This document shows, in pieces, positions 20,434 to 33,504 of a stretch of DNA of 64,000 bases. The notes beneath the pieces were generated by a model. It made no database searches, had not been told where the DNA came from, and saw nothing but the letters and a program-made list of their open reading frames with translations. The DNA lies in contig JAGPNK010000003.1 of assembly GCA_020746835.1 (NCBI GenBank), forward strand, positions 186,001 through 250,000, in the 5' to 3' direction. This stretch comes from Stachybotrys elegans. Taxonomy: Eukaryota > Ascomycota > Sordariomycetes > Hypocreales > Stachybotryaceae. A program made the translations under genes and the position numbers. Position 1 is the first letter of the stretch. Every line of letters starts with the position of its first letter.

Positions 20434-21418
20434 GGTGAAAACGTGTCTGCAAAAATCCTGAAAGGTTTCTTTGCGCCACGCCACGTTGGATAGGGACCAA
20501 GGTTGAATTTTATCAACGTCTAGGAAAATTGCCAAAATATTTTGCAACAGCGTGTGGTGCCAAGATGTCGAAGCCTCCACCGGTGAGGATCCGGCACTAA
20601 CAGCTGGGCACGGCAGCAGCGCGGCGGCCAGTTTCGGTGCTATCGCTCCGGGCAAGATTGCACACTGTCGGATGCAAATTGCGCAATGCCCGCCTCCTCC
20701 CGGATCCAGACTCGCCGACCCACTTCCTCGTTTAACTTTTCGTTCAACTTTCTGCTGGGCACAGGGGAAGGTTGCCTACCTCCATGGCGACGGACTGAAG
20801 TTCACCTAGGACTCAGGAGGGGTAATGTGAGCCGGCAGCGGGCTCTGCAGAGTCGATGCAGCGGCGTCTGGGTGGGCATGGACAAAGATATATGACTGAC
20901 TCCACGGCGAAGTTCTCACCGCTCACACACCTGTCCTCGTTCCGGATTCTTCCCATGGAGCCACTGCACATCTATCCCTAGCAACAACCAATCGGCAAGG
21001 TGTAGGCACACCCTTTACTTTCTGCATGATCCAGGTGTCGCAGCTGAGTCTGATGTCCCCCGCAGCAAAGAATCTTGGCAAACGAACTCGGCCAGAATTT
21101 TACAGGGACAAAAATGAGGCACAGCCCAGCCAAGCCAGGTACATCTTATTGTCGCTGGATTGGATTGATTGACAGGTGTTTGTATTCTTGCCAACGTCAC
21201 AAGCACGGCTCACAGATGTGCGTAGGCCCAAACAAATAACCCCTCAGGAAATCCTACGATAAGATCACGAACAGCTAGGGCTCACTAAGATGTGACACAG
21301 GCAATTGGGTAATTATTGAGAGTGATAAAACCTGTATCCAGCCAACCCATTGTTGCTCAGGGAGACTTGACACTGGGCAGCGTTGCCCAGCCCCGAAGAA
21401 AACGAGCAAGCAAACGCC
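20434..21418. other. 1-kb intergenic region
   Basis: Promoter side of the UNC93-like gene and 3' side of the next gene. No coding sequence supported. Confidence 0.4.
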
Positions 21419-23613
21419 TTAAACCGTATTGCCTGGCTGATTTGTCGGAACCGGGCCTTCAATGGGACCACCCAGCGTCATTTGCTGAACCATATCAGGC
21501 AGAGATGGCGAGAGCTCTTTATCCACGTCGTCTCCTGTCGCCTCCTCCTTCTCATGCAAGACATTCCCGTCCGCAAGGTCATCGCTGCCGGCATCGACTT
21601 CTCTTGCCATCTCCTCGTTGGGGTGGCTGCTGGGAGAGTTGTCCGTTTGCACCCCATCCTCCGAGCTTGCACTGTTGCTGGCATAACTTGTCGCACTGCC
21701 GTTATCCAATGTGTGTTGTTCGTTCGCCGGTTCGCCGTTATTGGCATTGACGTCATCGTGGTTGCTGGGCGATATCCAATCCAATTCCAGGTCCTCATAC
21801 TCATAGACCGGAACCGTTTTGTATTCACGCTCTTCCCAGTATTGTGGTAGTATATGCTCAGCAAGAAGATCTAGGAATCTTGGAAACGGTGAAACCGGTT
21901 CAATATGCTCAGCCTTGGATAATGTGAATTCAGCAAATTGTAGACCATCCATGTAGGAATATTTTCGGAATTCCGTATCAACATCCCAAAGCATTGGGCC
22001 GATATTGAAAGTGGTCTCAATTGATCTACAGTGTCCATTCACGAGGTCCTGGACTGCTTCTGGGAAGCCATCAAGCACAACTAGAAAACAGCAGATTAGT
22101 ATATATATCGTGATAGACATGTCAAGCAAGATCACGGCCAAGAACTTACAGCAGCCATTATCCTGTTTCTCAGTATACCAATGTCTCCTGAATCGCGGAT
22201 CTGTCCCCTCGTTTATTCTTGTGGCAACCTGTTGCCAGATAGCTGTACGTTGAATGATATTTTGAAAGATGTCCGTGCATTGTTCATGTGCCGGACCCGC
22301 ATCGAGGATGAGTTTGAAAGACTGCTCGGGCATGCCAGCCATGCGAAGTTCCAGAACTTCCATAATCCACATGGCTAGAGAGTGAGTCAGCTTCCAGGAA
22401 GGTCTTCCACGCTCTCGCTCGGGAAGCCGGGACTGCTCCTCCCAATTCAACTCGTGTTGGGCGCCCCCATTTCTCTGTTTGTGCAAGGAGTCTGGAAGAC
22501 AGTTCTCCACATGTCCGCGCGGCGCTCAATACGAAGATGTCGATTCTCCTGACAATATTCAATGAGCCCATGCCCATGAGTTTCGGGCATAGATACAGAT
22601 ATTGAGTGTTCATTGAGATGAATCCTGCGTAGGTGCCTTCGGAAGTGAATTGGGAATTGAGATAGGAATTTTATAGCCGCTGCGGCTGCAGAGAAACGAT
22701 ATTTCCCTTCTGTGTACTGAGTATGACCGTCTAAATCTCTATAGCGCGGCCTTTCCCAGTGCTCCTCGGTCTGCTTTATTGAATAAATAAATGGCCGTAA
22801 TTCTTCATTCTTCGGGCCAGGGGGGATATAACACCATGTAGGGTATTTCTTTAGGTAGGGTAGCAGCCGAGCAGGAGCCCAGTGCTCATGGTCCTTGTGA
22901 TAGAAGTGAACATTAGGATCGGCTGGGTACCAGTGTTGAGGAAAGGTGTTGTATTTCAGCGCGAGCTCATAAACTCTGAGAATGGTCCGGTGTATATATG
23001 AGCGTGGAGGGCCCCAGTCGTTCCGCTCCCTTTTGGGAACTACAGTGCGGTCGTTGGAAAGGACTGCTCTGAGAAAGCTTTCTGCCCGGGGGAACTCCTG
23101 AATGGCTTCCTCTAAGATAGCTTCGGTGAAACCGCATAGGACAGTGTCGGATTCATCCTCTTCAACGTAAGGGATCGGCGGCTCGTCTAGTTGGCCCTGT
23201 TGATCTTGTTGGCCTTGCTGAGCCTGTTGGTGTTGGTCGTCGTCGTCGTCCTCCTCATTATCGTCGTCTTCGTCTTCGTCGTCCCTTCCTCGAAGGACTT
23301 CAGCCGGAGTCCAAACGCGGGAATATAGAGAAAAGTGCGTACAAGCAGCTTTGACACGCATTTCGTCAGAGTAGTCGGCCGCAAAATGGATAATGTTGAC
23401 ATTTAGCGCAAGTCCATGCGTCTCATGTGCCACTTGTTTGCATGTGAGCCGTAAGGCGTGATCAATAGGTTGCTTGGCACCATTGCGATCGCGAGCCTCC
23501 AATTTGCGTGTCTTGAAGTTGTAGACATAGCCGCCATCTTCAATGAAGTAGGCATCGTATATGGCGCGGCGAACCTCACCCGGAAGATCTAGGAAGATCC
23601 TCTGGGGAGCCAT
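21419..23613 (-). CDS. Uncharacterised fungal protein with 2EXR/F-box-like N-terminus and acidic/Gln-rich linker
   Basis: I do not recognise a firm family. Three exons join in frame, 23613-22452, 22374-22150 and 22080-21419, giving 682 aa. The N-terminus MAPQRIFLDLPGEVRRAIYD resembles the start of fungal F-box or 2EXR-type proteins (hydrophobic-Pro-x-Glu-[IV]R), often adaptor-like. Residues about 105-140 are a low-complexity run of Asp/Glu then Gln (encoded by GAC/GAG and CAG/CAA repeats). The middle is a conserved-looking block with many Trp, Tyr and His (GPPRSYIHRTILRVYELALK; RFSAAAAAIKFLSQFPIHFR; RHLRRIHLNEHSISV). The last 150 residues are hydrophilic and acidic. Intron 2 (GTAAGT...TTTCTAG) is strong; intron 1 (GTTGAA donor) is inferred from frame and a CTGAC branch. 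Confidence 0.7.
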
Positions 23614-24411
23614 AATGAAGGCGGCGGGCGGTGGATGACAGAGGCGATCAGGTGTGGCGATGATGATTAAAACCGCCGGTCGGTTGTGGTGGGGAGAGAA
23701 GCAAAATTCGGGAAGCGAAAGTGGAAACGGACCTGGAGCGGTTAGGTCTTTAAGTAGAAGAGGAGGGCTAGGCTACGTACCAGTGGGCTCTGAATAAGGT
23801 TCCTCGTCGGGCCGAGCAGAGGGGAATCAAGAGCGAAGAGCGAGGCAAAGTGACACGACACTGTGACTCATTGCCAGCCACATGCAATTAAGCTCGGGTC
23901 GATGCGCGCGCTAGTCCTTCATTTCCGTCCTTCTTGGTCCCAAGGAATGCTTCTCTCTTCCAATGTCTGCTTTTTGCTGAATGCAACCAGCAGAGGTGGC
24001 AGAAGTGGGCGGGAGACGCCGGGTCGTATGTCGCAGGTGTCATATGTGTCTCATTCGCATAGCCGTATAGCCGCATAGTCGCATGTGTCGCAGATATCGC
24101 CGTATATAGGTATCCGTAGGTATGATAGCAATTGTGAAGTAGAAATGGTTTTTTCACCAATGCCTTTTCAAAAGCTGGTGAGGGAGGCACCTAATCATCG
24201 GCTGACTCGAAGCCAGCCTCATAGGCGACCATTCGCCCCAGAGTTGGGACCAATAAGCCAGGGCATGGCTCGTTTTTATGATGTAGTAGGTGCGTCCAGT
24301 GTGGAAAAAAGAACAATAGTATATGCGAACAATAGTGGCCTTGCTACCCGCAGGACCAAAGAACAGTGTCAAACAATGAAGGGATCGTCAGACTGTAGCA
24401 TACAATATATA
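23614..24411. other. 0.8-kb intergenic region
   Basis: Upstream of the 2EXR/F-box-like gene and downstream of the intron-dense locus. Around 24040-24110 short GCATAG/GTATAG-like units recur imperfectly. No gene seen. Confidence 0.4.
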
Positions 24412-27400
24412 TCAGCTGTAAGCTTTCCTTGTATAGATGCAAAGGGAATTACCTACTGACATCTCCCGTTGGCCGGAGCCAGAGAACAATGAGGGGGCTG
24501 CAACAGCGGCAGCGGCAGCAACTGGGATTATAGTCAGCCACAATGCACGAGGAGATGATACGAGAGCTCGGCAATATGGCTAACCCACGTACAAGCGTAT
24601 GCAGTCGGGGGGACCTACGGTTAGCAGACTGGCCTCTTCTTGGTTAGCTACCATACAACACTCCTGAATGGCCGGAAAACTAATACCTCGATGTGTGTAC
24701 ATACCGTTCGTCGGCCTGTTTACTGTTATGTTAGGTATCATTCTGCAAACAATAAGAACAGCAGTATAAATACTCTAGCTCTTACGTGTGTTCTGACGAG
24801 GCTGGCCTCTATAATGTTAGCTATTCTTCACTGCATGAGGAGAGCCAGTTGCGGTAAGAGGAAGTACGTACCGAAGGTGCTGTCGTCTGGAATCAATTAT
24901 TGGCCACGCGCAATGAGGATAGTTTGACGAAATGCCTGCCGCCAGCATGTTAGTCATGGTTGCCAGCGCGAGCATGTGTCGACACTTACAAACTCACACG
25001 TACCGCGATTCCGGCGGAAGTCCTCAGGCTGCGTGGGCTCACTTGTACATCAGATGAAGCCCATCCGTGGGGCAGTCAAACCGTCCTTGACATACCGACG
25101 AAGAAGCTGTATATTGATCTCATGTCAGCAATTGCCGAGCTCGAAAAAGGCTTTTGGGTAATTACCTGACTTACCATGTGACGGCTGTGGCTGCGGATGG
25201 TGCCGTGGCCGCGTTGGGCCAGGAATGCGTGATCTGGCTTGGCTCAATTAGATATGAAACAATCATGATATAGCACCATTGCGATTGCTAGCATACCGCG
25301 CGAGGCCCAGCCCTAGAATAGAGTTCTGGATCTTGTAGGTTAGTATACGGCATGCTAGAGCAGGGTTGGCAATCTACTAACCGAGAGATGCGCACAAGAA
25401 GGCCTTCGCCCCTCCGTTGCCTGCAGGATGTTAGAATTTCGTATAGCGGTTGGTCTATGGTCAAACAGACATGCCTCTCTCTTTCTCTTCCTTCCATCTG
25501 CACTATATGTGTTAGTGTTATCAGCAGCCTTTTTTCCATAAGTGGATATAAAAAGCACTTACCACCAAAATCTTCGTCATCGACGCTGTTGTTATAATAT
25601 TAGTTAAAACAAAGGCCTTTTAGAAGGGGCTGAAATATAGAGGTTAACTGCACCTACACACTATACAGTATATAATGTCAGCTCAATACCATAGACCAAA
25701 GCCAAGTAGTAATTCTAGCATTACATACCAGCAGCTCCATATCCTTAGCTTAAGTTATTATCTTAAGTAGTGTTGAAGTACTTCTGTATGCTTACCTTAA
25801 TGGAGAATACAAACCAAAACGCCGGGGGCGGCACTGAACCTTGCTTGTTAGAGTTGATCTGGGGTCATTTCGAAGAAGAGCATAAGTTACATACCGACCC
25901 CCCAGAGCAGGGGCACCAGCAGCCTGCTATGCCTTAGGTATTAGAATAAAGTTTGCGAGAACAGATCTAAGGACCACATACCCCAGGCCGGAGACGGCCA
26001 AACTGCTGGCATTTAACCATTAGGATCATATTACACTCGACACCTATAAAGAGCATGTCATGCTTACCAGAGGTGAGTCTATCCATCCCGAGAGGCCTTC
26101 TTCGGCTCATCAACCCGTTGTCAGCGACGGTTCCGCGGAATTAATAGATCATAGCTTACCGAGGAACAGTGTCGCTGACGGTCTGTATCCTAAATTTGTT
26201 AAAAGAATTCATCATCTTCCGTTTTATAGACTTACGCACGATAGACCGGGGCTTTCGAGCCCTTCGAACGACGGCCCGATAGTCCGGACCCGGGCCCCCC
26301 CGGAACCAGAGGGGCAAGAAGAAGGTGAATAGGACTAGCAAGCCTACCAGGGCCTTCTTCGAACAATAGGCCTAAATAATAGAAATATAGGATAAGTACG
26401 TGACAATAGAGAAACAACAGAAAGCAGAATTGGAATTACAGACCCACCTACATCTTGGAGCCTGTCTGCCCTCTATGGCTTAAGAAAGCAAGTTAGTGAT
26501 TTGGATACGAGCCATAGAGACTCAAAGACCTACTCAACTGATATGCTCTGGCTGGAGAAGGATGGGAGGTCCTAGAAGTCTCAAATTCGGTTAGCCCACG
26601 ACAGACATAGGATTGGGATACCCAAGTAATTATATCCCAGAGCACATACACCGAACTGTTGGGATAGCGGGAATGGCTTGTTCCAACGCAAAAGTAAGCT
26701 AGTTGGACACAAGACATAGAGGCAAGGATTCTCACCTACCCAGCATACCGCTTTGGTGGAGGGAGGTGGAGGGCTTCCTTCTAAACAAATATACCATGTT
26801 AGCCCTATTAAATGCACGATTTATAATCCGTTGAGTTGTACGTAATACAATACCGAGTGTTTCGGGCTGCGTCTCTTTGACGTTAGTACTCTTAAGAAGT
26901 CGTAAAGCAGAGAAAAGATATGGTTCTTACTTAGAAGGCCTAGATAATGTTTAATGTATCCTGCAGCTGAATCTTAGTATATGCAAGTAATAGAGAGGAC
27001 CTGCTATAACCTCGACCTGTGGACGGAAAACCCTGCTTAATCTCGGTCAGCGTAATGCGAACTCAGCTGCTTTGGCTCACCTATTACTTTTGCCTTTATA
27101 GAGGTAAGATAAGGCACATTGAGAGCCAAGAAGGGAGAAAATACCTTGTCAATCGTGCTGCTGTCGGCCTATTCGTGACTGTATTCGTGACTGTGGTCCC
27201 CGTAGCTGCAAGAGGGACATCTCCCTCTACAATGTCAGCATGCTGCAGTGCTTAGGAAGCAAGACGTGGTGACTGTGATCCAAGAACAACGCGTACCGTG
27301 TGGTCGAAGCCTTGATGCGGTCCCTGACTGGGGTCAGATGAGCAAAGATTGCGAAGATTCGTGCAACAGCCTGCTGCCGAGGTCAACTCACATCATCCAG

Positions 27401-27590
27401 AAAGTCGGTTGAATGACGGCGTACCAAGGGACATACGATGCAGATGATCGAGCGTATCTGTCTTGAAGGGTCAGTCGATATATGGCCCTGGGCAATGACT
27501 AGAGCGGCTTGCAAATCGTACAGAAGGGTTGGACCTACCACATGACGGGCAATTGGGCATTTGTATGACCTATTCGACCTTAGCATAACT
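24412..27590 (-). CDS. Intron-dense locus of unknown function (at least 19 tiny exons)
   Basis: I do not recognise the product. On the minus strand, AT-rich introns with good fungal signals (GTAAGT, GTATGT, GTACGT donors; CTAAC/CTGAC branches; TAG/CAG acceptors) alternate with GC-rich exons. From 26371 to the stop at 24412, exons end at 26236, 26160, 26068, 25982, 25895, 25796, 25729, 25563, 25471, 25382, 25297, 25175, 25096, 25004, 24872, 24786, 24705, 24585 and 24412. They carry one open frame of about 262 codons. The predicted peptide is rich in Arg, Pro, Gly, Ser and Cys, has a hydrophobic stretch near its start (SPIHLLLAPLVPGG) and an Ala-rich end (VVAAAAAVAAPSLF). Further exons (26472-26452, 26571-26534, 26698-26652, 26780-26749, 26866-26854) continue upstream, but the frame before 26866 and the start codon are unresolved. 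At about five junctions I chose the site that kept the frame open. It could be a protein gene, a decaying gene or a spliced non-coding RNA. Confidence 0.45.
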
Positions 27591-30500
27591 AGAGGGGGGA
27601 CCTTACTAACACCCCTTCCCCCTTGAGCAGTTTTACCCCATGCTCAGGGGGGGGATAAGACATGGGAACACAGAGAAATCAAGTTCAACGATGATTATAT
27701 TAATGATATATATATATGTCAACAATATCACGCTTCCCGTTCCTGCCTGTCCTTCCTATTCGTATATATGCGCGGTTTGAGGAGCTTCCTCCTCTTGGGG
27801 GGTTGTTTAGCCGCCTCGCTGTCTGGAGCTGGACGTTTTTTCAACCATTCCTTAGGCGGCTTACCCGAAAATTGGTCCAGATCAAAGTTTTTGATAGCAA
27901 ATTCCGCCACCATCTTGGCATTCTCGGGCGACTCGAAGATGGTTTTCAAGTAGTCATCCCGAAGCAGCAGCGAGTGGCACTCTGTTTCCCGGAGAAGCCT
28001 CTCTCTTGCGGCGACCAGCGCATGGTGCTCGCAGTCGATGAAGAGATGCTTCAATGTCTCGGTCTTCAGTTTGCACTTGCGGCATTGGATGGAAATGCCT
28101 TGGGAACCTGGGAGCTTCTGGACATATGGCCTGAGGGCAATATATCCGGTCCTGCACTGCAGCATGATGGTGGACTGCTTGCGAGTGAGACCGCTGTAAT
28201 AGTCCTTGAACTTGTGGTCACTCCACGAAGTCGCCAGTGTGATGGTGTATCTGTGTAGGCTATCGGTGCTCTTCTGTTTCTGGAAGGCTGACCAGGCTTC
28301 CGTCATCTTGTCGCGTATGAGGAGTTCGCCCGTCTTCTTGATGTGCTGGTGACGCCAGTCCTTGTGCTTGGGGTCGTCCCATTTCGACTTGAAGATCTCA
28401 TCGTCAATCTGTTTGCGCAGGCGACCTTTCGTTTCATCGAGCAAGTGGATCGCAGAAAGTCGGACTTTCCTGTGCGGATGCTTGGCAACATTGATTGGAC
28501 TGAGAGCCTTCATGAACTCACGACGTGTAACATCCCGCTCGGTATCGAGAATCTTGGCCTGATGTACTGCAGCCCTCATCTCGAGAGTCAAGGAGAGGGG
28601 CGGAATGTTGAGCTCCTTGCGAAGCATTATGCGACTCGTGTTGGGCAAGGCGGCTGAGATTGCGATGAGGCATTCGTACTGGAACTTGTCTAGTTTGTCG
28701 ATAAGGGGCTTCTTGATGCGGCAGTATTGCGATGTACCCTTTGCGTAGGGGTACCAGGCGGGACAGGCGTAGGTTAGGATGGACTGCACCTTGGCCAGAT
28801 AGAGTGTTCGCATGGTAACAAGAGAGGGGCCCCACGTCTTTCCGGATGTGTACGTGATGAGACGCATAGCCTTGTTGGCCTTTTCAATGATTGAGTCGAT
28901 GTGGGCACTCCATGTGAGGCGAGAGTCAACAAGCACACCAAGGACCTTGACCCAATCCTCCTTGAAGAGGATCTCGGGCGGAGGCAGCCCTTCTATGTTG
29001 GGCACAACCCGGATCTCGCCATCCTCCTTGTCGTGAGGGCCTCGGAAATGCAGCAAACCATACTTGTGAGGTGCGAAAGTGACGCCATGCTCGTCGGCCC
29101 AGGCTCGCATCTTGGCGTGTATCTTCTCCAGCATGCGGCAGTTGGTCTCCCAGGAGTCGGATCGTACCAGAATATGGCTATCGTCGACAAACGTCACACT
29201 GATGGCGTCGCCAAACTCGGCCAGCTCCTCGCTGAGCGCCGCGGCAAAGATGAGAAACAAGAGGGGAGACGTAACACTACCCTGGGGCAGCCCCCCGTTC
29301 TCGAAGAAGGTCTGGGGCTTGTGCCCAGACATGCACAGCGACGTCTCACGCTCGCAGAGGAAGGACCGCACGTACATGATGAGGTACGCTGGGAATTTCC
29401 ACTCCTCGAGCCTCTTGATGACGGCTTCGCGCAGCGTTTTGGGGAAGGCGCCCGAGATGTCGAGGGCAAGCAGAGTGACCTTCATCTTGCCAAGCCATCC
29501 GGTGTAGACGAAGCACGTCAGCGTCTGGAGAGGCGTGGTGGTGGAGGTCCCTGGCAGTCCGCCAAACTGCATCTTTGGAATGGGGCGCCGGCCGGTGGCT
29601 TTCTCTATGTCGTCGAGGGCGGCCAAGAAGCGCTTGACCATCAACCGCTCGTACACCTTGCCGACGGTAGAGAGGAGGGCAATGGGGCGGTAGGAGCCAG
29701 GGCAACGAGGGTCCTTATCCTCCTTGAGGATCAAGATGGTCTTGGACTTCTTGAAGGCCTTTGGGAAGTAGCCGTGGCGCATACAGGCCCTGTACATGCC
29801 GCAGAGGTGGGGGAGGATGACGCCTGTACTCTTCTTCAGAGCCTCGTACGCAATGCCATCCGGTCCCGGAGCCTTGCGGTCCGCGAGGGACTTGATGACG
29901 TCCAAAATCTCTTTCTCAGTTATCTCGTTGTCGTCGATTTCTGCAATTTCACTCCAGGTGAATGATGTCGTGTGCCTGACATGGCCGGGATCGCTGCTGG
30001 GTGCGGGCTTCTTTTGCGTCGTCTTGCCTGTGCCAAATGTATGGTCCATAAACCAGACACACTTGGTACCCCCTGTCTTGGCGACCTGCTTGTCCTTTTC
30101 GAAATCGGGCGTCTGGGCTAACTTGGCCGGCTTCGAGTGCCGGAGGGCTCGCTTGCTTTTAATCCAAAATAAACCCAGGCTTGTCTGCTTCAACCGGGGG
30201 GGCGCGTCCTTGGGGGTACTGCCGCCAACTGGAGATGGGCCGTTGGTGACGTTGCTTCCCTGGGATGCATCCTTGGAAGCAGGTGGCTTGGAACGAAGCC
30301 GGCGGCCTTTGAGTTCATAGGGATCTCTTACAGGCACATGATCCTTGATGGCGCCCGCAAGAGCCCTGATGAAGACATCAACATCAACATGCCGATTGAT
30401 GTCGCGACCGGTGCAACATCTGGACCACTTGACGCGGTCCAATCGGCCAAAACGCTCCTTGACTGCTCGTTGAAATGCCCTGCTGTCCACGTCACCCCAC

Positions 30501-31010
30501 AGATGCTGCTGACCCTTCTGTCGAGTGACGTGGAGATTAAAGATGGTTTCACATAGGCGATGGTCACCCGCGAGGCCATGAACGTTGGGCATTTTCCATT
30601 TGGGACGCATCTCGTCTCGCATGAAATTGCATAGGCTCTCACCAGCAAAGATAAGGTCAAGCGTTGACCTCCATCGACGCTCGTTGGGATTGGCGGCGCG
30701 AGTGTAGGTGATGGCGCCGGGGGTCGTGACAAGCCTCATCTTGTAATCGCTGAGTGCCTGAGAAAAGGCCTCTGCTCCTGTCGAAGCCGTCTTGCCTTGT
30801 GGCGACCAAGACGCATGATGCAAATTGAAATCTCCGATGAGGATAGCTGTCGGGTCCGAGCGGCATAGCCTGGCCACCTTTTGCAGATCAAGGCAGTGTT
30901 CATCCTCGCCTTCTATCTTGTCATTTCGATAGACATTGTGTATGGTGATGCGACCGATGGGAAAATCACCAAGGTCAGCACCATGCATGCCTTTGACATT
31001 GAACTGATTT
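27545..31010 (-). mobile_element. Non-LTR retrotransposon (LINE, Tad/jockey-like), apparently 5'-truncated
   Basis: A LINE in minus orientation. It contains one long frame for endonuclease and reverse transcriptase (27728-30988) and a 3' region of about 180 bp. That 3' region ends in a short repeated tail (minus strand ATGCCCAATTGCCCG near 27545-27560), as seen at LINE 3' ends. There is no LTR. An ORF1 (gag-like) frame is not visible upstream; open codons run only to about 31005 and then an in-frame stop appears, so the copy seems truncated inside the endonuclease domain. The exact ends and target-site duplication could not be fixed by eye. Confidence 0.8.
27728..30988 (-). CDS. LINE ORF2: AP-endonuclease plus reverse transcriptase
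   Basis: Polyprotein of a non-LTR retrotransposon that nicks target DNA and primes reverse transcription. The frame is open for 1086 codons. The endonuclease/exonuclease/phosphatase part shows ILIGDFNLHH near residue 45, STLDLIF near residue 110 and AGDHRLC near 140, but its first conserved block is missing. The reverse transcriptase shows RPIALLSTVGKVYERL, catalytic ALDISGAF, GLPQGSVTSPLLF and the catalytic TFVDDSHIL (FVDD box). A C-terminal CRKCKLKTETLKHLFIDCEH motif is the usual Cys/His knuckle. The absence of stops or frameshifts suggests a recent copy, or weak repeat-induced mutation. The true start codon of the full-length element is lost. Confidence 0.9.
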   Translation of the reverse strand: MHGADLGDFPIGRITIHNVYRNDKIEGEDEHCLDLQKVARLCRSDPTAILIGDFNLHHASWSPQGKTASTGAEAFSQALSDYKMRLVTTPGAITYTRAANPNERRWRSTLDLIFAGESLCNFMRDEMRPKWKMPNVHGLAGDHRLCETIFNLHVTRQKGQQHLWGDVDSRAFQRAVKERFGRLDRVKWSRCCTGRDINRHVDVDVFIRALAGAIKDHVPVRDPYELKGRRLRSKPPASKDASQGSNVTNGPSPVGGSTPKDAPPRLKQTSLGLFWIKSKRALRHSKPAKLAQTPDFEKDKQVAKTGGTKCVWFMDHTFGTGKTTQKKPAPSSDPGHVRHTTSFTWSEIAEIDDNEITEKEILDVIKSLADRKAPGPDGIAYEALKKSTGVILPHLCGMYRACMRHGYFPKAFKKSKTILILKEDKDPRCPGSYRPIALLSTVGKVYERLMVKRFLAALDDIEKATGRRPIPKMQFGGLPGTSTTTPLQTLTCFVYTGWLGKMKVTLLALDISGAFPKTLREAVIKRLEEWKFPAYLIMYVRSFLCERETSLCMSGHKPQTFFENGGLPQGSVTSPLLFLIFAAALSEELAEFGDAISVTFVDDSHILVRSDSWETNCRMLEKIHAKMRAWADEHGVTFAPHKYGLLHFRGPHDKEDGEIRVVPNIEGLPPPEILFKEDWVKVLGVLVDSRLTWSAHIDSIIEKANKAMRLITYTSGKTWGPSLVTMRTLYLAKVQSILTYACPAWYPYAKGTSQYCRIKKPLIDKLDKFQYECLIAISAALPNTSRIMLRKELNIPPLSLTLEMRAAVHQAKILDTERDVTRREFMKALSPINVAKHPHRKVRLSAIHLLDETKGRLRKQIDDEIFKSKWDDPKHKDWRHQHIKKTGELLIRDKMTEAWSAFQKQKSTDSLHRYTITLATSWSDHKFKDYYSGLTRKQSTIMLQCRTGYIALRPYVQKLPGSQGISIQCRKCKLKTETLKHLFIDCEHHALVAARERLLRETECHSLLLRDDYLKTIFESPENAKMVAEFAIKNFDLDQFSGKPPKEWLKKRPAPDSEAAKQPPKRRKLLKPRIYTNRKDRQEREA

Positions 31011-31890
31011 TACGGGGTGCAGTTAGCATACCCGTTGGTGTTTGCGGGATGGGCCGCCACACGCCAACGGGGGAGGGACGTCTACATTCCTTGGCCCGTG
31101 TGGCAGCCCGCCCCGTCCCTCGGGCACAGGCTCAGCTCAAGTCCAACGTTAGCTCAGGTACAGTCCAGGTGGGGCCGCTTTGTATATCCGTCCCTCGTTC
31201 CCGGGCAAACGGTCCCACGTTCCAGTTCCAGTTCCAGCTGGCAACGGTGCATTTATTATTACCCTATCCTGCCTTGTGACAGCGGTGTCATGCTCATTTC
31301 CACCGTGAAAACTTTCCACCTGCCTTGTCCATCTGGGCACAGCACCTGTGTGGTCGCAGCGCAGCCTCATCAGTCACGTGGCCGCCCCACCACACTGGCG
31401 GACTCAGCCATAGCCGACGCATTCGAAGCAAGCGGCCCAGGACCGACAGAAGGGCTGACAAAGTCGGCCAAGCATATATAGATGGGAGGATTCTACATAG
31501 GGAGCTTAGCTCGAACAATCTGAATGCGTCGCTGCTATTTGCCAAGCCACGTGTCGCAAGGCCGGACCCCTGATTTATTGATGCGAACCGCACAGACGAG
31601 TCAAGACTTGGATACGGGGCCCTCCGCCAACACGCTCGGGTGCCTCATCTCATTGATCAGGACCTCGCCTAGGCGACGTACCTCTCTGAAGCTTGGAGAA
31701 AGATCAAAGGGTAAAAGAGCTGCTGAGCATACTGAGCCAGTCCCGTAGAGATGCCAACCCATTGAATAATCATCGTAGGATCCGTCACGCAGTAAATTTC
31801 GGTACATGAGAACATATGGTAATTAAGAAAGGCTCTATCATGTTCTATAGTCTATAAAGTTTGAATTATCTACAATGCGGTATTATTGGC
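31011..31890. other. 0.9-kb intergenic region
   Basis: Between the LINE 5' end and the stop codon of the MFS gene. No gene supported. Confidence 0.4.
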
Positions 31891-33504
31891 TTAATTGGAT
31901 TCCTGGCTCGATTCCTGACTTGATTCCTGGCTCGACTCCTTGGTCTGGTGCATGCTCTTCATGAATGCATCAGACTGTGCTGCGTACTCGCACCGACTCC
32001 TAATGGCCGCGCCGTACTTGTAAAACAGGAAAGGGAAAGGCACACACGCAAGCGCCAGGAAAGCCGGCACAGTGGATGCCCAGTGGATGCCCAGATTCTC
32101 GTACATGTGTGTGGTGAAAAGAGGGAACGCCGCGCCAAACAGCGACCGCAGCACCGAGTTGGCCGCCAGCACCGAGGCCGCAAAGATGGTGTACGCATCA
32201 ATCAGGTAGTTGGTGATGCTCAAGAAAACTAGCACCATTCCAAAGCCAAAGGGGACGCCGGCCGTGATGCTGACCATCCAGTGGATCGAAGGGTCATTGG
32301 TCCAAGCAAACCAGAAAAGACCAATGGGGAGCGCGATGGACCCGAAAATGGCCGGCGGGAGACGCGCCTCGGGAGGAGCAAAGCCTCCGTGCTTCTTCTC
32401 CATCTTGATGTAATGCGAGTTGATAGGAAATGTAACGGCCACGGCGAGCAGCATGCCCACCATGATTCCAATGAAGCTCAAGCTCCCAACGCCCTGGTTC
32501 CACCCGCGATGCAGCTGATAGACGATGGGGTAGGCAGCGAAGAACATGTACAGAGTTCCATAGATGATGGCCATGTAGATGGAAAAGAGAAGAACAATGG
32601 GCTCCTTGAACAGCAGGATCCATGGTCGCGAAAGGGCCGTCTTGAGGACCTCACCAAATGTAGCCTTGCCTCGCTGGTGATCGAGGAGGCTGACGTAGTG
32701 CTTTCCCGTCATCTCGGAAAGCTTGGCGGCGCGTCGTCGAAGCAAGACGGGCGCGTACGTCTCGGGAACGGCCACGGACCCAAAGATCCACAGCACGCCG
32801 GCAACAATGGCCAGGAAGCCCATGACCCATCGCCATCCCGCATTCATACCGAGGAAGCCTCCAATAATGGGCCCCAGGACAGGGCCAAGGAAAGGGCAGG
32901 CGGCAAAGATGGCCAGGGCAACGCCTCGCTGGGCGGCGGGGAACAAGTCGGCAATAACACCTCCGGCGTTGGTGAGAGGAGACGATCCGAACGCACCGGC
33001 CAGGAAGCGGAGGATGATGAGAGACCAGGCGTTGGTAACACCGGCACATCCGGCATTGAAAGCTGCCAGGCCTGCGTAGGTGATGATGAAGAGGATCTGG
33101 CGACCCCAAATCTCGCTGAGAGGTGCCCACAGGATAGGCCCGACGGCAAATCCAAGAACGAAGAGCGAGACTCCGAGCGTGGCCACCTCCTGGCTGATGT
33201 TAAACTCGACCATGATCTCGCGCATGCCACCCGTATAAGCCGAGGAGACGAGAGCGACGGCGAGGGTGGCAAAGGCAACGGCGAAGGTGATGCCCCATTT
33301 CATGAGGTCGCTGAACTGCATGGGGTTTCGGGGGTCGTTGGGAATCCATTGCACCAGATAGGGGTCCTCCTCGGTTCCGGAGCCGTCGTAGGGGTAGTTT
33401 GCGACTTCGGGCGTAACGCCAGCCTGGTCGACGACCAGCCGCCAGTAGGGGATCTTGGTGGGCGTCACGGGCTCCTCGAGCTTGCTGGCATCAGATGACT
33501 CCAT
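31891..33504 (-). CDS. MFS multidrug/polyamine-type transporter (DHA1 family)
   Basis: Proton-coupled exporter of the 12-helix DHA1 family, plasma membrane; members export drugs, polyamines or toxic metabolites. A single exon of 537 aa starts at the ATG at 33504 (MESSDASKLEE); the open frame extends further upstream but without an ATG. The long hydrophilic N-terminus ends at NDPRNPMQFSDLMKW, a typical DHA1 entry to TM1. Motif A appears in GPILWAPLSEIWGRQ, followed by LRFLAGAFGSSPLTNAGG and the motif-C-like GPVLGPIIGGFLGMNAGWRW. The last 16 residues are a tandem SSQE repeat (KESSQESSQESSQESN). No cluster partner identifies its cargo. Confidence 0.93.
   Translation of the reverse strand: MESSDASKLEEPVTPTKIPYWRLVVDQAGVTPEVANYPYDGSGTEEDPYLVQWIPNDPRNPMQFSDLMKWGITFAVAFATLAVALVSSAYTGGMREIMVEFNISQEVATLGVSLFVLGFAVGPILWAPLSEIWGRQILFIITYAGLAAFNAGCAGVTNAWSLIILRFLAGAFGSSPLTNAGGVIADLFPAAQRGVALAIFAACPFLGPVLGPIIGGFLGMNAGWRWVMGFLAIVAGVLWIFGSVAVPETYAPVLLRRRAAKLSEMTGKHYVSLLDHQRGKATFGEVLKTALSRPWILLFKEPIVLLFSIYMAIIYGTLYMFFAAYPIVYQLHRGWNQGVGSLSFIGIMVGMLLAVAVTFPINSHYIKMEKKHGGFAPPEARLPPAIFGSIALPIGLFWFAWTNDPSIHWMVSITAGVPFGFGMVLVFLSITNYLIDAYTIFAASVLAANSVLRSLFGAAFPLFTTHMYENLGIHWASTVPAFLALACVPFPFLFYKYGAAIRSRCEYAAQSDAFMKSMHQTKESSQESSQESSQESN

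Follow-up and report, generated by a model that had tools for sequence, protein, structure and literature searches.

What does a stretch of fungal DNA produce when its splice signals stand so close together that its exons are mostly a few tens of nucleotides long? The question was raised by the minus strand of a window of 64,000 nucleotides from Stachybotrys elegans (contig JAGPNK010000003.1, positions 186,001 to 250,000), to which all positions below refer unless a contig is named. It touches on why a non-coding gene would carry introns at such a density, on what lets the source of a repeat family persist when the genome mutates its repeats, and on the whereabouts of the source genes behind orphan fungal retro-RNAs like WEIRD.

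Extent and splicing of the source gene

A mechanical scan of positions 24412-26866 returned 17 non-overlapping donor-branch-acceptor chains on the minus strand. The opposite strand of this stretch held 3, and 500 dinucleotide shuffles gave 2.5 ± 1.4, with a maximum of 7; over the whole window, the richest plus-strand bin held 6 such chains. Copies found elsewhere in the same assembly are joined at GT-AG junctions. The extremely intron-dense minus-strand gene announced in the preliminary description is therefore confirmed: the locus is a real spliced gene and not a chance cluster of motifs. Since these copies carry the exons joined head to tail, splicing of the source RNA is established by genomic proof, and the existence of retrocopies suggests that the gene is transcribed at present.

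The interval first outlined, 24412..26866, lies inside the transcription unit but misses both of its ends. According to the copies, the unit spans 24276..27652 on the minus strand, its 5' end being given by the full-length copies and its 3' end by their common CATCATAA end. A spliced alignment of the source with the nearly complete intronless copy L009 (contig C42) resolved 31 exons and 30 introns, of which 28 are GT-AG, one is GC-AG and one is non-canonical, the last two sitting where the L009 isoform departs from the source. The representative set pooled over all copies contains 31 introns, all of them GT-AG (31/31), with a median length of 63 nt and, by the rule used, a branch-like motif near the acceptor in 29 cases. 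With up to 32 exons and 31 introns, the unit exceeds the minimum of 24 exons and 23 introns initially counted; the initial exon range of 11-136 nt was nearly right, the representative exons measuring 6-132 nt each. They add up to a spliced RNA of 1,204 nt (~1.2 kb), i.e. about 26 introns per kb of exon. As a whole, 93 supported junctions, some of which are alignment noise, were pooled from the first 58 aligned loci.

The representative exons, given here in the order of transcription on the minus strand, were placed by copy junctions except where another source is mentioned. Exon 1 (27539..27652) has a C-rich inverted repeat at its start and is followed by exon 2 (27437..27457; start 27461 in some copies, reaching 27392 in others), exon 3 (27297..27323; alternative start 27327), exon 4 (27145..27205; alternative start 27224) and exon 5 (27088..27093), a 6-nt microexon of a minority of copies whose acceptor is seen in L010, L014, L060 and L069. 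Then come exon 6 (27011..27032; alternative start 27035), exon 7 (26931..26960), exon 8 (26854..26872), exon 9 (26749..26780; end 26740 with an alternative donor), exon 10 (26657..26676; also placed by the L009 spliced alignment), exon 11 (26448..26465; alternative end 26452) and exon 12 (26240..26371), which is the longest with 132 nt. The central part comprises exon 13 (26160..26189), exon 14 (26068..26099; alternative start 26096), exon 15 (25982..26002; alternative start 26005), exon 16 (25895..25926) and exon 17 (25796..25833; alternative start 25839), followed by two further microexons that are, like exon 5, legible in the copies: exon 18 (25729..25734; 6 nt, CTGCTG, alternative start 25743) and exon 19 (25654..25660; 7 nt, of which L009 has 3 nt only). 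Downstream are exon 20 (25563..25585), exon 21 (25471..25502; alternative start 25497), exon 22 (25382..25420), exon 23 (25297..25325), exon 24 (25175..25233; alternative start 25237), exon 25 (25096..25106; 11 nt, skipped in some copies), exon 26 (24998..25041; alternative start 25037), exon 27 (24872..24886; alternative start 24879) and exon 28 (24774..24801; alternative start 24808, alternative end 24786). The unit closes with exon 29 (24687..24715; alternative start 24722), exon 30 (24589..24633; alternative ends 24593 and 24585, alternative starts 24635 and 24628), exon 31 (24457..24521) and exon 32 (24276..24392; alternative start near 24415), which bears the 3' end common to the retrocopies.

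Folding of the 5' inverted repeat gave -27.2 kcal/mol (z -1.5) and the 3' end was unremarkable (z 1.4 and 1.0); no claim is drawn from either value. A T6 run inside the source RNA (24310-24305) speaks against transcription by Pol III.

Concerning the number of such loci, a query of the assembly with exon 1 gave 21 candidates, all of which were scored: the window locus was the only full-length match, and the remaining candidates match the source exon by exon. Queries with the central region, the last exon, the 5' region, exon 12 and exon X (see below) returned no second intron-bearing locus among the candidates scored, which were the best 40 of 191 for the central region and the best 40 of 274 for the last exon, a depth at which a diverged locus could escape.

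Number and structure of the retrocopies

The assembly searched was that of the window itself (43.4 Mb, 61 contigs). Once the search coordinates were merged and the source excluded, at least 136 further places on 37 contigs were found to hold parts of the source, a lower bound, since scoring was limited to the best candidates of each search. With the 24412-26866 stretch as query, dozens of loci (best 40 of 191) matched as exon-sized blocks set head to tail, and blastn against 39 stretches showed that the family covers 27652 to 24276, with variable 5' ends and a common 3' end. Most copies are 5'-truncated, and several of the full-length ones share the same C-rich start. The 27-nt 3' end occurs at 83 sites with at most 3 mismatches, vs. 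0 for the reversed control. No poly-A tail was found in the copies, whose 3' flanks directly follow CATCATA(A). Exact target duplications of 10-17 bp border 16 of the 39 copies reaching the 3' end (2/400 in mispaired controls), whereas 14 of the 39 lack any duplication of at least 7 bp; many of the target duplications open with ATA or ATAA, overlapping the last bases of the element. Missing introns, splice-site joins, target-site duplications, 5' truncation and a common 3' end are all features of processed retrocopies, the poly-A of L1-type families being the one that is lacking, and together they form the pattern that LINE-type retroposition of a spliced RNA, by target-primed reverse transcription with 5' truncation, would leave. 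Four copies (L016, L017, L070 and L081) are poorly aligned or rearranged, and some of the short entries represent matched lengths rather than proven whole copies.

Five independent insertions (L098-L102), considered as LINEs and rejected as such, are truncated copies of the source RNA. They begin at nearly one base, some 10 nt downstream of the last exon's start, with target duplications that differ among them by eye, and this start is a hot spot of 5' truncation. Another locus, L104, consists of a short copy, sequence lying 3' of the source end and then a second 3' end, and would derive from either a read-through RNA or a template switch.

The full intron series of the source is absent from all 78 loci that were aligned with splicing. 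One or two introns, counted as retained when at least 80% of the intron is present at more than 70% identity, persist in 10 of these loci, seven different introns being concerned altogether, and the intron-retaining copies include old ones (L040, L043 and L047, ~20-27% diverged). Because single introns are retained in this way, in part by old copies, the introns are older than the copies.

As for the exons, one of 31 nt, named exon X, is present in 31 places, including L009, L011, L013, L015, L020 and L024. It is absent from the window and thus from today's source. It was probably lost where intron 26, 111 nt long, now lies; alternatively, it belonged to a source that is older or has been lost. 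L057, L012 and L010, which are young and RIP-like, are devoid of it and fit today's source. The retrocopies also provide a fossil record of the alternative splicing of one gene through time.

Possible LINE machinery

A long intact LINE-like ORF with endonuclease and reverse transcriptase domains (RVT_1, E 1.9e-24) occupies 27731-31009 on the minus strand and ends ~75 bp upstream of the start of the source gene. Its closest protein relative, 48% identical, is located on contig C14, and a search of the genome for a second DNA copy gave none, the single DNA relative being 65% identical. The ORF was rejected as a part of the unit, no aligned copy extending past 27652 into it. A LINE whose 3' end matches the last exon was sought in seven LINE copies from two families and in the C14 downstream stretch, with no match above 12 nt. 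One LINE family (L090-L094; contigs C22, C38 and C6) has five copies that are 89-99% alike over their 3' 1.6 kb, four of them ending in telomere-like CCTAACCTAACC repeats; these copies are not RIP-like (TpA/ApT 0.65-0.77).

RIP-like mutation of the copies

Copies were called RIP-like when they showed at least 15 C>T/G>A changes and at least 4 times as many of these as reverse changes, a rule that L061 and L024 narrowly miss. By this rule, 12 of the 13 copies of at least 1 kb are RIP-like, vs. 2 of the 44 shorter ones (L028 and L032; Fisher p 1.6e-9). The test covers 57 of 58 loci (L009-L047 and L051-L069), with L070-L089 and L098-L105 outside it; the locus dropped, L067, is a heavily RIP-like partial 5' piece of a copy (97/0/1), and counting it as short changes the latter proportion to 3/45. 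Among the young copies, i.e. those with few transversions, all five long ones are RIP-like and none of the 14 short ones. Compared with the source, the numbers of C>T+G>A, reverse changes and transversions are 348/1/13 in L069, 266/0/7 in L057, 290/1/12 in L041, 174/0/7 in L012 and 70/1/5 in L010. A CpA preference was found in four of the five young long copies (0.86 vs. 0.39, 0.67 vs. 0.28, 0.81 vs. 0.31 and 0.43 vs. 0.22), L010 showing none (0.12 vs. 0.11). The source itself displays no RIP-type mutation and, since reverse changes are nearly absent, it has remained unmutated since the young long copies arose.

Retained introns are low in RIP-like change, with 5 of 38 C/G sites affected in the pooled data vs. 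315 of 842 in exons (p 0.0017). This pooled contrast rests on L028, where the mutations flank and spare the retained intron (1/18 C/G sites vs. 53/150), the difference for L057 alone being not significant (4/20 vs. 262/692). L009 (C42:16062-17303, on a 54-kb contig) is the sole copy of at least 1 kb without RIP-like mutation. Below that size, none of the five intronless copies of 592-950 bp is RIP-like. For closely placed repeats in Neurospora, PMC4858203 reports that perfect homology over 155 bp suffices to trigger RIP and that 220 bp promotes it substantially. The effective length limit in S. elegans may be near 1 kb, and RIP may act irregularly in this genome, given that near-identical LINE copies were spared.

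Coding potential and nature of the source gene

A frame of about 262 codons had at first been read from the locus, with a novel protein as one possibility. The stop of that frame, near 24412, falls within the intron of the commonest junction at that place (24456-24393, 15 copies), although some isoforms start the last exon near 24415 instead, and the protein found no support. In the predicted spliced RNA, the longest stop-free sense frame is 150 aa, a length reached by 106 of 500 dinucleotide shuffles. Moreover, any reading frame would shift, because alternative junctions a few nucleotides apart are in use side by side: donors 24592, 24588 and 24584, spaced by 4 nt, serve in 13, 8 and 8 copies, and acceptors 24634, 24636 and 24629 in 14, 5 and 9 copies, respectively. 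A protein-coding gene with processed pseudogenes might still be argued from the longer frames of some isoforms (e.g. 226 aa in L015) and from the antisense frames of the spliced RNA, which exceed chance (200 aa, reached by 1 of 300 shuffles). However, the 226-aa sense frame of L015 had no match in a protein search at E 0.01, and the sole match of a 287-aa antisense frame of L009 was the hypothetical protein B0I35DRAFT_197077 of Stachybotrys elegans, an annotation that is itself the antisense frame on this retrocopy (C42). A coding gene is thus very improbable and the source RNA is apparently non-coding, which agrees with the second guess of the preliminary description, that of a spliced non-coding RNA with fortuitous frames. 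No more credible is an introner-type gain, in which some 30 introns would have invaded an intronless retrocopy: it would suit the presence of introns at one locus only and the majority of intronless forms, but the introns kept in ten copies, diverged ones included, are not all the same and show about the divergence of the exons, and a search of 21000-32000 revealed no repeat common to the introns beyond short chance families.

We therefore consider it probable that this is a non-coding master gene, present in a single copy and processed by the spliceosome, with a spliced RNA that is retroposed and introns that hide the gene from RIP. Both the spliced source and the retrocopies are directly visible in the assembly. 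They show that a minus-strand RNA is made from 27652 to 24276 and loses up to 31 introns, and that the resulting RNA of ~1.2 kb, in many isoforms, has been reverse transcribed and inserted at the 136 or more places, in most cases truncated at the 5' end, with a fixed 3' end and target-site duplications. The enzyme would be a non-LTR (LINE) reverse transcriptase acting in trans, which would start from the CATCATAA end at ATAA-like targets. Homology between source and copies would be broken up by non-homologous introns of ~60 nt (50 bp or more), no piece exceeding 132 bp, and the intronless copies, sharing more than 1 kb, would be paired by RIP with one another, leaving the source unpaired and able to keep emitting copies. 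Such a shield is proposed because the longest exon, 132 bp, is shorter than the 155 bp trigger given for Neurospora in PMC4858203; evasion of RIP by means of introns would account for what is, in the present data, a correlation. Against it stand L009, which is long yet not RIP-like, L010 with its missing CpA preference, and the spared near-identical LINEs and mid-length intronless copies.

The main rival to the shield is that selection could have kept the source free of mutations. The locus would then be a functional host lncRNA gene, with accidental retroposition of its abundant spliced RNA and selection that removes its RIP-damaged alleles. This agrees with a single stable source at whose 5' and 3' flanks no target duplications were seen by eye, with an exon structure still recognisable across old copies, and with the proposal of a housekeeping ncRNA made for the Magnaporthe WEIRD RNA by its authors (PMC2104539). 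Nevertheless, exons are at most slightly better kept than introns, since non-RIP-type divergence amounts to 51/602 in introns and 202/3115 in exons (p 0.078; 10 intron-retaining copies). The promiscuous splice-site use, with its 93 junctions, the absence from the source of an exon found in 31 places and the lack of any relative in an Rfam search also count against a host gene, which we regard as rather unlikely. Returning to the intron-shielded master gene, a further step can be put forward tentatively, as a serious possibility more than as an expectation: the locus may be an intron-armoured retroelement, a non-coding element shattered so as to be invisible to RIP and spreading as spliced, intronless copies, in which intron gain would be favoured when it brings the longest exon under the homology length needed for RIP and so shields the source. 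If true, the shielding of DNA from homology-triggered mutation would be a new selective reason for intron gain, introns would act as a countermeasure to genome defence, and other lost source genes, that of WEIRD among them, may be intron-shattered.

Comparison with known systems

In PMC2104539, WEIRD is described as a 1.1-kb non-coding Magnaporthe RNA copied by LINE template switching. The likeness of the present family to WEIRD/MINE, by description and not by sequence, lies in a non-coding RNA of ~1.1 kb placed at many sites by LINE machinery, with short direct repeats and a full-length 5' end. WEIRD was reported to be fused to the MGL LINE and never alone, whereas the S. elegans copies stand alone; its authors found neither a solo copy nor a source gene, which they blamed on an incomplete genome, while in S. 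elegans the source was found, with up to 31 introns. Our guess is that the missing WEIRD source gene is also intron-shattered, which would explain its absence.

The masters of SINE families, BC1 and ID elements being examples, are Pol III genes that are not known to carry spliceosomal introns. The S. elegans family resembles theirs by its one source, its many dead or 5'-truncated retrocopies, its non-coding RNA and its machinery in trans, but the source requires splicing and its RNA contains the T6 run (24310-24305) that would stop Pol III. Mammalian-type processed pseudogenes are intronless cDNA copies of spliced RNA with target duplications, as are the copies described here. The latter differ by the absence of poly-A and by a fixed, sequence-specific 3' end, as well as by a non-coding parent with microexons that is represented at more than 130 places in a 43-Mb fungal genome. 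In literature titles and abstract openings, among which subscription journals are thinly covered, neither a many-intron source of a retrocopy family nor introns acting as a RIP shield were described. Finally, the one-way C>T/G>A changes of the long duplicated copies, mostly CpA-biased, are those of RIP; the difference is that the source of the repeats escapes.
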